A DNA stretch of 64,000 nt, from assembly GCA_013823855.1 (NCBI GenBank), contig PNMW01000015.1:1-64000 (forward strand), in the 5' to 3' direction. Origin of the DNA: Lysobacteraceae bacterium. Its GTDB lineage: Bacteria > Pseudomonadota > Gammaproteobacteria > Nevskiales > Nevskiaceae. Made by a program: the position numbers and the translations under genes. Below, one piece after another: positions 51,110 to 64,000 of this stretch (the stretch's first letter is position 1; the number at the start of each line of letters is the position of its first letter). The notes below the pieces were generated by a model that ran no database searches, was not told the origin of the DNA, and saw only the letters and a list, made by a program, of their open reading frames with translations.

Positions 51110-52408
51110 TCAGAACTTGTATTCGGCGTACAACCAGCCGCGCTGCACGTTGGTAGCCTGGCCGGCGACCACCGGGAACTCATCGGCAAAATAGGCCGCG
51201 AACTTGGCGAACAGCGTGAAGTTGTCGAGCACCGGATAGCTGGCCAGCAGATCCGCCTCATTGCCGAAATGCGGACCGGCATCGGCGGCGAAATCGTGGA
51301 AGATCGCTGTCAGGCTGGCCTTGGCAACGGTCGCGCCGAACGAGGCATAGATCCGGCGCAGACCCTCGGTCGGCGTGATCAGGAACTGATCCGCCCAGCC
51401 ATCGAATGCGTGCACGGTGCCGAGCGGCGTCTGGAAGCTGGTGCTGCCATTGCCGCCCAGCACTTCGTAGCCGGCCAGGCCTTTCAGTTTCTTCCAGCCA
51501 ACCGTCGCTTCGGCTAAGGCATAGCGGTGGTCGCGATCGGTGCTGCCGCGCCAGTCCTGCTGCACTGCGTATTCCAGCGAGTAGCCCAGGGTCAGCGCAC
51601 CAGCCGGCACCTGGCCGATGGCGCGCAGGCCGAGTGTCTGGCTGTTCGACATCAGCCGGCCCACCGCGGCGCCCGGCACCGTGCCGAAATCGAGGAAGTA
51701 GCCGTAGCCGGTCAGATTAAGCTTCTTGCCGATGACACTGGTCGAGCTGTTGATCAGGTGCGCATCGATATCGACCTGATCGGTATTGCGGCCGCTGATC
51801 AGGAAATTGCGGAACGAGTTGATCCGGTCCAGATGCGCGTACTGCACCGTGGTGCGCGGAATCAGCGTGGTGGTCAGATAGGCCGCATCGAAGGTCTGTT
51901 CATCCTGGCGCCAGGCAACACCGCCGATGTAGCGCTGGTTGTCCAGATTGATGCGCTGGCGGCCGTACTTGATCTGCGTGTTCGGCAGGCCGGAATAGCG
52001 CAGCCAGACCTGATTCACTTCATGGACCTGGGCATCGGGAATCGCCGGATAGTTGCTGCGGCCATTGCTCAGCGAGTTGTAGCGATCGTCGCCGATGGTG
52101 TCGAGGCCCTCGTATTCCAGCTGGCTGTCGAGTCCATTCCAGGCGGCGGTGGTATAGCCCAGACGGACGCGGATGGTGGTGGCATGGGCGGCGTCGCGGG
52201 TGATCGGCGCCGCCAGTGGCGAATCAAGTTTCAGATACTCATAGCGCAGGCGGACATCGAGATTCGGCGTGCCGCCGGTCAGACGAAATGGAAGATCGGC
52301 CAGCGGATCGGTGGCCATGGCTTGAGTGGACCCGAGCATCATCGTCATGGTGACCGTTGGCGCCAGCGCGGCACGCACGAACCCCTGCATCCAGTTGGTT
52401 GCATTCAT
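51110..52408 (-). CDS. Alginate-export/porin-like outer membrane protein heading the nitrate transport operon
   Basis: Signal peptide; LDVRLRYEYLKLDSP..., NQVWLRYSGLPNTQIKYGRQRINLDNQRYIGGVAWRQDEQTFDAAYL; aromatic C-terminus ..WLYAEYKF. Confidence 0.8.
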   Translation of the reverse strand: MNATNWMQGFVRAALAPTVTMTMMLGSTQAMATDPLADLPFRLTGGTPNLDVRLRYEYLKLDSPLAAPITRDAAHATTIRVRLGYTTAAWNGLDSQLEYEGLDTIGDDRYNSLSNGRSNYPAIPDAQVHEVNQVWLRYSGLPNTQIKYGRQRINLDNQRYIGGVAWRQDEQTFDAAYLTTTLIPRTTVQYAHLDRINSFRNFLISGRNTDQVDIDAHLINSSTSVIGKKLNLTGYGYFLDFGTVPGAAVGRLMSNSQTLGLRAIGQVPAGALTLGYSLEYAVQQDWRGSTDRDHRYALAEATVGWKKLKGLAGYEVLGGNGSTSFQTPLGTVHAFDGWADQFLITPTEGLRRIYASFGATVAKASLTAIFHDFAADAGPHFGNEADLLASYPVLDNFTLFAKFAAYFADEFPVVAGQATNVQRGWLYAEYKF

Positions 52409-52451
52409 GGCAAAACCCTTCGGTGAAATCGCTGTTATTGGTGCGGGCAAC

Positions 52452-52503
52452 AAAAAAGCGCCCATCGCTGCCGACCAGTGGAATGGTCGACAGCAATGGG
52501 CGC
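52452..52503 (-). terminator. Leader terminator (attenuator) upstream of the porin-nrt operon
   Basis: Minus strand GCGCCCATTGCTGTCGACCA-ttccac-TGGTCGGCAGCGATGGGCGC-TTTTTT, 20-bp stem with two mismatches. Confidence 0.85.
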
Positions 52504-52561
52504 CTTTACCCGTTGTCTGTCTGCTCAGTGCTGCGAGATCCGGCCGTCTTTAGCCGCGCAG
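52494..52561 (-). promoter_or_regulatory. ANTAR (NasT/NasR)-type two-hairpin antiterminator in the leader RNA
   Basis: Minus strand hairpin 1 CGGCT-AAAGAC-GGCCG (52541-52556) and hairpin 2 CAACGGGT-AAAGGC-GCCCATTG (52494-52515); both are hexaloops with A1 and G4; hairpin 2 overlaps the 5' arm of the terminator. Confidence 0.8.
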
Positions 52562-52610
52562 GAAATGGAGTTTCCGGCGCTCGCAACACTGGGTGTCACG
52601 GTAATGTCGA

Positions 52611-52626
52611 AGCAACGGCCGTGCCA
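52611..52626 (-). promoter_or_regulatory. Sigma-54 promoter of the porin-nrtA-ntrB-nrtD operon
   Basis: Minus strand TGGCACGGCCGTTGCT, full match to TGGCACG-N4-TTGCW. Confidence 0.85.
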
Positions 52627-53202
52627 TGTATGCATGAAAGTTCCGAAACCTGCTTTGAAAAGCCGGTTCCAAGCCTTGCCGAACAAGGGTTTGGAGCGAA
52701 CTCGCGATTTGCCCGGGGCACGCGCCTGCGGTTTCGTGGGGGGCGGAACGGTCCTGAGCTGCCTCGTAGTACGCGCCTGAACATTCGATTGGCGCTCGAT
52801 TCGCACCGATGCGGATCGCGCTCAGCGCATTCGGCGTTCCATTCCGGTGCACGGATTCCGGAATGCCTTTCCGAGGGCCGCCATTCACGGCGACTGCGCA
52901 TCATGGCGACGAGGCACAGCAGCGTCGGCCCGGAAGCCGGCCCTCCGGGAGCCAGGCCGGAAAGCCCTTGCCGACCTGCGCACCTGATGGAATGGCAGGG
53001 GTGTGCCGCCCCGTACCGGTAGGAGACGATTCGCGACGGCTGCGCCCCGCTGCTCCTGGCAGGCTTCTTGCTGCCACTCCGATGGGCGTTATCGACGCCC
53101 GCAGCACGGCCATCGTCGCCCGAGCTACTCCGGACACCGAGGTCCCGTTCCCCCGCGTTTCGACGCGGGCGGGGTCCTCCACCACTGTCCGGACGTTTCG
53201 CC

Positions 53203-61492: not shown

Positions 61493-61603
61493 TTCGTGCA
61501 TCGATAGCCGAGTTCTGGCACGTCGATTGCTGTAACCAATACAGATGTTCGCTGCCTGAACAGTTTCGATCGGCCAACGACGCCTGATCATCGGACTACG
61601 AAG

Positions 61604-61651
61604 TCCACGCGCGAAGAGATCGCAGATCTCCCCGCGCGTGGATTTTTTTTT
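61604..61651 (+). terminator. Strong intrinsic terminator after the TPR/ExbBD cluster
   Basis: TCCACGCGCG-aa-GAGATC-gca-GATCTC-cc-CGCGCGTGGA-TTTTTTTTT. Confidence 0.9.
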
Positions 61652-61683
61652 TGCCCTTTGCAGATCAAGCCTTCCGGAGCCTT

Positions 61684-63141: not shown

Positions 63142-63822
63142 ATGAAGACCCAGACTTGTGAAGCATCTTCATCCATGCGTTCGGCCTATGCGCCGAGCAA
63201 GAGTCGAATCGGCAGTGACAAGACGGGCGCGATGAAACACGCAAACCGAGGCTTGCGGGTGATGCTGGTCGATGACGATCAGACGCGCCTTGCCATGATG
63301 GAACAGGCGCTGGTCGCCGAAGGCCACGTGATCGTCGTGCGCCTCGATGCGCAGGCTGATCTGCTGGCCGGCGTGACCCTGCACCAGCCGGACGTGATCT
63401 TCATCGACGTCGATGCGCCGAGTCGCGACACGCTTGAATCGCTGGGTCAGATCCATCGCGAACGGCCACGGCCGATCGTGCTGTTCGCGGCACGAAGTGA
63501 CGCTGAAACCGCGCATCGGGCGATCCACGCCGGGGTCAGCGCCTATGTCGTCGATGGTCTGCATCCGACGCGCCTCAGCGCGCTGCTCGATGTCGCCATC
63601 GCCCGTTTCGAGGTTCATCAGGCGCTGAGCCGTGAGCTGTCGGCTGCCAACGCAAGACTTGCCGACCAGCGCGACATCGAGAAGGCCAAGGGCCTGTTGA
63701 TGAAGCGCCGCAAGATCGATGAGGAGGAGGCTTATGGAATGCTCCGGAAGATGGCGATGGACCGGAAGCAGAGAATCGGCGATTACGCGCGCTTGCTGCT
63801 CGCCGCATCCGACTTGCTGTAA
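63142..63822 (+). CDS. nasT: ANTAR-domain response regulator, NasT-like (start may instead be 63232)
   Basis: Receiver-like LRVMLVDDDQTRLAMMEQAL...; C-terminal ANTAR RDIEKAKGLLMKRRKIDEEEAYGMLRKMAMDRKQRIGDYARLLL. Confidence 0.9.
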   Translation: MKTQTCEASSSMRSAYAPSKSRIGSDKTGAMKHANRGLRVMLVDDDQTRLAMMEQALVAEGHVIVVRLDAQADLLAGVTLHQPDVIFIDVDAPSRDTLESLGQIHRERPRPIVLFAARSDAETAHRAIHAGVSAYVVDGLHPTRLSALLDVAIARFEVHQALSRELSAANARLADQRDIEKAKGLLMKRRKIDEEEAYGMLRKMAMDRKQRIGDYARLLLAASDLL

Positions 63823-63842
63823 GCCGCCCAGGGACGGTCGTG

Positions 63843-64000
63843 ATGATTAACGGGCTGGAAAAAACCAGGATTCGCCTCGGCATGCTGCCGCTGGCAGATG
63901 CTGCGCCACTGATCGTGGCGCGGTCGTGCGGCTTCTTCGCCCGGCACGGCCTGGAAGTGGAGTTGAGCGCCGAGCGTGCCTGGGCCGCGCTTCGCGACAA
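63843..64000 (+). CDS. nasS: NasS-like nitrate sensor (CmpA/NrtA family), truncated by window end
   Basis: MINGLEKTRIRLGMLPLADAAPLIVARSCGFFARHGLEVELSAERAWAALRD; directly follows nasT. Confidence 0.8.
   Translation, partial: MINGLEKTRIRLGMLPLADAAPLIVARSCGFFARHGLEVELSAERAWAALRD

Follow-up and report, generated by a model that had tools for sequence, protein, structure and literature searches.

Nitrate operon and its leader

The window, by which we mean the whole stretch of 64,000 nucleotides that was analysed, carries on its minus strand a set of nitrate transport and assimilation genes that is preceded by a sigma-54 promoter, a leader with two small hairpins, and an intrinsic terminator. In the order of reading, the features are as follows.

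52626-52612, minus strand: sigma-54 -24/-12 promoter TGGCACGGCCGTTGC, an exact match to TGGCACGN4TTGC
52591-52526, minus strand: three-way-junction domain (constrained folding, compensated pairs), made up of a closing helix (52591-52580 with 52537-52526), a side hairpin P0 (52579-52557) and P1
52556-52541, minus strand: P1 hairpin CGGCU-AAAGAC-GGCCG with A1 and G4 (sequence, covariation)
52511-52498, minus strand: P2 hairpin GGGU-AAAGGC-GCCC with A1 and G4, the predicted antiterminator (sequence, covariation)
52506-52452, minus strand: intrinsic terminator with a 22-23 bp stem, a 6-nt loop and U6 (folding and sequence)
52408-51110, minus strand: Alginate_exp-type outer-membrane porin (Pfam PF13372), first gene of the operon
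51074-49806, minus strand: nrtA-like nitrate-binding protein (Pfam NMT1_2)
49834-47911, minus strand: ABC permease and ATPase (nrtB, nrtD-like)
47477-39017, minus strand: MFS nitrate transporter, nirB-like nitrite reductase, NAD(P)H oxidoreductase and nasA-like molybdopterin nitrate reductase

The closest named relatives of the porin are found in Nevskia MAGs, and its reading frame likely starts at 52408, because the in-frame ATG at 52465 sits inside the terminator. The best PDB match of the nrtA-like product is NrtA (2g29, E 6e-81).

The first-pass annotation had described a full-match sigma-54 promoter and two hexaloop hairpins, AAAGAC and AAAGGC, with A at position 1 and G at position 4. 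The promoter is indeed an exact consensus match, and both loops can be read directly in the minus-strand sequence. The terminator had been given as about 20 bp followed by U6; the U-tract (52457-52452) was right, while the length was slightly short, as 52506-52484 pair with 52477-52455 over 22-23 bp. The 5' arm of this stem includes most of the P2 loop and the entire 3' arm of P2, so that P2 and the terminator are mutually exclusive, in line with the earlier proposal. The minimum free energy fold of the leader (z = -7.5 relative to shuffles) contains the terminator and places P1 within a three-way junction. A scan of both window strands for the composite of two A1/G4 hexaloop hairpins and an overlapping terminator returned a single occurrence, and the same scan found none in 60 dinucleotide shuffles of the window.

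Transcription of the leader is expected to start near 52600. On its own, such a sigma-54 match is unremarkable, since the window contains four with at most one mismatch and 2.4 are expected. The stem might simply be the terminator of an upstream gene, with the operon promoter elsewhere, and the ORF listing does contain open frames across the leader. However, the region immediately upstream contains no credible 3' end of a minus-strand gene, and in most of the close orthologous leaders a sigma-54 site occurs at the same place, a short distance 5' of the leader, which makes an upstream-gene terminator exceedingly improbable. NtrC-like sites (GCACC-N6-GGTGC) are about as frequent as expected by chance, and none is claimed here.

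Conservation and fold of the nitrate leader

Orthologues of the porin were found in 31 of the 85 genomes of the order, and leaders were read for 30 matches. Most of these share the two A1/G4 hexaloop hairpins of the window leader; departures from the loop rule are G1 in P2 (L011, L012, L018), a P1 without G4 (L013) and the lack of a clear P1 (L019). Covariation of both hairpins in orthologous leaders had been named as a test in the first-pass annotation, and among 12 aligned relatives the P1 and P2 pairs do covary, with a value of 0.527 against 0.292 in shuffles (0 of 500 reach the observed value) and at most 0.19 when the partners are slid; these 12 leaders were picked for recognisable P1 and P2, which biases the pairing counts upward, and it is the excess over shuffles and slides that is informative. 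The pair closing the loop is C:G in 10 and U:G in two of the 12 leaders for P1, and C:G in nine and U:G in three for P2. The window leader has U:G in both hairpins; in SELEX experiments with NasR, a closing C:G pair was preferred (PMC7496416).

A covariance model, R1, was built from the 12 aligned porin leaders. Genome-wide it has a single strong match (54.8 bits), namely the leader in its own training set. The next matches, at 18.2 and 17.5 bits, were rejected as further nitrate-type leaders; they fall in coding-like sequence with neither promoter nor terminator. The independent evidence for the putative leader family is provided by the R1 matches beyond the training set. Within the order these precede nirB (L066, L070) and narK-type MFS genes (L069, L073, L075), and all five have a sigma-54 site a short way 5' and a U-tract on the 3' side. 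In a search of 369 genomes of the class, R1 gave 13 matches outside the source genome, and all except L175 are immediately followed by an nrtA, porin or nitrite/nitrate-reductase-type gene; in this more distant set, the sigma-54 pattern is limited to some of the leaders. Rfam, searched at gathering and permissive thresholds, returned no relevant match to the leader.

These data also bear on the possibility of a plain intrinsic terminator that has no specific regulator and in which the hexaloops are incidental. The stem is very strong and the sequence AAAGGC is in part imposed by the terminator arm, as such a view would have it. P1, however, is not part of the terminator and is nevertheless conserved in both loop and stem, with compensatory changes; the composite is expected zero times per window; and of the genomes of the order, all 17 that have a strong R1 match (E<1e-4) carry an ANTAR gene, compared with 63 of 85 overall. 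We therefore consider a plain terminator very improbable.

Constrained folding with P1 and P2 held places P1 of the Nevskia leaders inside a three-way junction. In the whole predicted fold, six pairs (four in the closing helix, two in P0) are changed on both sides among five Nevskia leaders, although these leaders are close relatives and the structure was derived from one of them; the compensated pairs thus support the modelled junction and are not decisive. The closing helix is stronger than in shuffles in most of the Nevskia group and in L014, L015 and L025, and borderline in several others. As a universal feature the junction was rejected, as L010, L066, L070 and L075 show no excess over shuffles. 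The linker between P1 and P2 measures 29 nt in the window leader and 9-39 nt across leaders. In the eut leaders of Enterococcus faecalis the linkers are 5-12 nt long and 14 nt already impaired induction, whereas the linker of the general dual-hexaloop motif has been described as variable (PMC3369931). The window linker is outside the eut range, and the junction may shorten it to a free spacer of 14 nt; after predicted folding the free spacer is at most 18 nt in 33 of 33 leaders, a figure that comes without a shuffled control. Folding up a long linker in a junction would be a likely structural solution, added to the known mechanism.

Taken together, the element is very probably a NasT-type antitermination leader of the nitrate transport/assimilation operon in a Nevskia-like gammaproteobacterium. 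The first-pass annotation had proposed an ANTAR-type antitermination leader here, and this is borne out by the covariation, the held-out orthologous leaders, the overlap with the terminator, and the RNA contacts Tyr164 and Met172 of EutV (PMC8934654), whose aligned Tyr and Met are conserved in all three ANTAR proteins of the genome. The leader falls in an established class, the dual-hexaloop ANTAR antiterminators of nitrate assimilation, and by analogy with Klebsiella NasR, Paracoccus NasS-NasT and Enterococcus EutV its function can be pictured as follows. Transcription would begin at the sigma-54 promoter, presumably under nitrogen-limitation control, and by default the nascent leader would form the long terminator, so that transcription would end 5' of the porin gene, near 52452. 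In the presence of nitrate or nitrite, the sensor NasS would release the ANTAR protein NasT, which could then bind the A1/G4 hexaloops of P1 and P2; P2 would thereby be held and the terminator prevented, permitting read-through.

The nasF leader of Klebsiella oxytoca is similar in its nitrate-responsive antitermination, its two A1/G4 hexaloop hairpins and its nitrate assimilation operon, but its regulator is the one-component NIT-ANTAR protein NasR (PMC7496416) instead of a NasS-NasT pair, and the leader described here differs from it by the long linker and the predicted junction around P1. The two-protein type of nitrate sensor is shared with Paracoccus denitrificans, in which NasT was found by gel shift to bind the leader RNA of the nitrate assimilation operon, nasA (PMC3795266); the source genome differs in having two NasS-NasT pairs, both predicted from sequence. 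The eut leaders share the dual hexaloop and the overlap of P2 with the terminator (PMC3369931, PMC8934654). EutV is controlled by phosphorylation, whereas in the NasT receivers Asp and Ala/Gln-type residues replace its Lys and Ser, so that phosphorylation seems unlikely for the latter. Among gammaproteobacteria, NasT-controlled nitrate/nitrite assimilation is on record for Azotobacter vinelandii and Pseudomonas, in work cited in PMC7496416 and PMC3795266. The nitrate leader would confirm a known mechanism in a lineage for which we found no report of it.

Candidate regulators of the nitrate leader

Three ANTAR proteins are encoded in the genome. One is nasT1, within the window; nasT2 is located at C11 about 70.9 kb; the third, a lone protein from contig 12 (L035 7766-8356), has no nasS neighbour and a sigma-54-like site just upstream of its gene (C12 98392-98406). 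The window contains the following regulatory genes.

63235-63822, plus strand: nasT1, receiver (REC) and ANTAR domains (Pfam 57.7 bits), start at 63235 or 63142
63840-64000, plus strand: start of nasS1, an NrtA-like sensor gene that runs past the window to C11 about 65096

An NrtA-like nasS gene follows both nasT1 and nasT2, which gives two receiver-ANTAR/sensor pairs; nasT2-nasS2 lies at C11 69.9-71.5 kb, about 7 kb outside the window.

The nasT-like ANTAR gene that the first-pass annotation placed about 11 kb away is thus real, and its distance from the leader is about 10.6 kb. It is less clear that it acts on this leader. G018 has a single ANTAR gene, a nasT2 arranged as nasT2-nasS2-leader-porin-nrtA; in the ANTAR protein tree, the nasT2 of the source genome groups with it (support 98/83). 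In 10 genomes (G018, G031, G026, G054, G060, G058, G050, G049, G055, G056) the distance between a nasT gene and a nitrate-type leader is about 1.6 kb or less, and none of these 10 nasT genes falls in the nasT1 clade; G026, G058, G049 and G050 have a nasT1-type protein elsewhere in the genome as well. The split between nasT1 and nasT2 is well supported among near relatives. The node uniting the Nevskia nasT1 group with the G026/G058/G049/G050 group lies inside a branch with a high support of 99/100, which also includes the lone type-3 ANTAR proteins, but the order within this branch is weak and several deep rows of the tree are long branches.

Based on this synteny and the protein tree, the nitrate leader is best paired with nasT2, and nasT2-nasS2 is probably its cognate regulator. 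That nasT1-nasS1 is cognate instead, alone or together with nasT2, would agree with nasT1 being the nearest nasT gene, with the similar spacing retained in G013, and with a plausible cross-talk between NasT1 and NasT2, which are 57% identical and have their RNA-contact residues in common. Against this stand G018, which has the leader with the nasT2 type alone, and G020 and G021, in which nasT1 is present at 98% identity and no nitrate leader was recognised. Moreover, all 10 nasT1-clade loci examined adjoin a type-2 leader (see below), and none has a nitrate leader within 1.6 kb. We regard a role of nasT1 as cognate regulator as unlikely for these reasons. Two genomes speak against the proposed scheme: in G020, nasT2 is present and the nitrate leader was likewise not recognised; in G024, an assembly of 89% completeness, the leader is present and neither nasT1 nor nasT2 was found. 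The earlier claim of a regulator and a target that share the window probably does not hold for this pair, and the pairing should be corrected to nasT2-nasS2, with the reservation that functional statements of this kind are read from sequence.

Type-2 leaders and a possible second regulon

A second leader in the window, which we call type 2, precedes the ompA-cupredoxin-nasT1-nasS1 genes.

61516-61652, plus strand: type-2 ANTAR-type leader (sequence; match to the covariance model R2 with E 5.9e-9, the leader itself being in the R2 training set)
61516-61530, plus strand: exact sigma-54 site
61568-61589, plus strand: P1
61593-61606, plus strand: P2, GGAC-UACGAA-GUCC
61643-61652, plus strand: U10 of the terminator

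Its transcription would be expected to start at about 61542. Its linker is short and its P1 is imperfect, as it can be drawn with a loop of seven bases, or with the six-base loop AACGAC plus a bulge; P2 has U at position 1, where G013 and others have A. Orthologues of this leader are found in G013, G019 and G027. From its position, the leader likely forms a self-regulating circuit with nasT1-nasS1. A sister leader lies just outside the window (C11 65165-65310; L034 4166-4310), before a DUF3034 gene with FMN_bind, PepSY_TM and ApbE genes further downstream. Sigma-54-like sites number 22 in the genome, and an attenuator-like leader follows at three of them, all on contig 11.

In the order, 43 of the 85 genomes have a match to R2, which was built from 13 type-2 leaders; a single genome can contain as many as nine, and the strongest matches include the training set. 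Most of the matches inspected precede DUF3034, OmpA-cupredoxin, FMN_bind or other envelope-type genes, and at nasT1-type loci the type-2 leaders precede DUF3034, OmpA-cupredoxin or flavin-related genes. A disrupted second pair of P1 was considered as a mark of specificity and rejected, as it occurs in Nevskia and is absent from G026, G028 and G023.

Whether the two NasS-NasT pairs of the genome form separate circuits, each with RNA targets of its own, is, in our view, evenly balanced. If so, NasT2 would control the nitrate operon through long-linker leaders with a P2 of GGGY-AAAGGC-GCCC, and NasT1 a second regulon through short-linker type-2 leaders with a P2 of GGAC-NNNGNN-GUCC, usually with A1; the targets of NasT1 would be OmpA-cupredoxin-nasTS1, DUF3034 and the FMN_bind/PepSY/ApbE genes. 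The NasT1 regulon would then have an envelope or electron-transfer function, for which no ANTAR link was found in the searchable literature; our search, which covered few subscription journals, returned no paper that ties DUF3034 to ANTAR control. A separate type-2 regulon appears to be more novel than the nitrate leader. The type-2 leaders offer a handle on the uncharacterised DUF3034 clusters and deserve a study of their own, and the paralogous NasT pairs with two leader classes constitute a natural test of RNA-target discrimination by ANTAR proteins.

Some further elements were observed. G023 and G028 have eight to nine type-2 leader matches each, and such copy numbers suggest a multi-operon ANTAR regulon. 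In the window, a one-mismatch sigma-54 site at 53057-53071 (plus strand) is followed by GGAC-ACCGAG-GUCC at 53132-53145 without a U-tract, 5' of a TPR/ExbB-ExbD/TonB-like gene cluster (named from its sequence). Counterparts of this element may exist in G013, G019, G024 and G027, where R2 has matches close to the nitrate leader. At L207 (G001:C2), two hexaloop-terminator arrangements occur in succession near two adjacent nasT genes.
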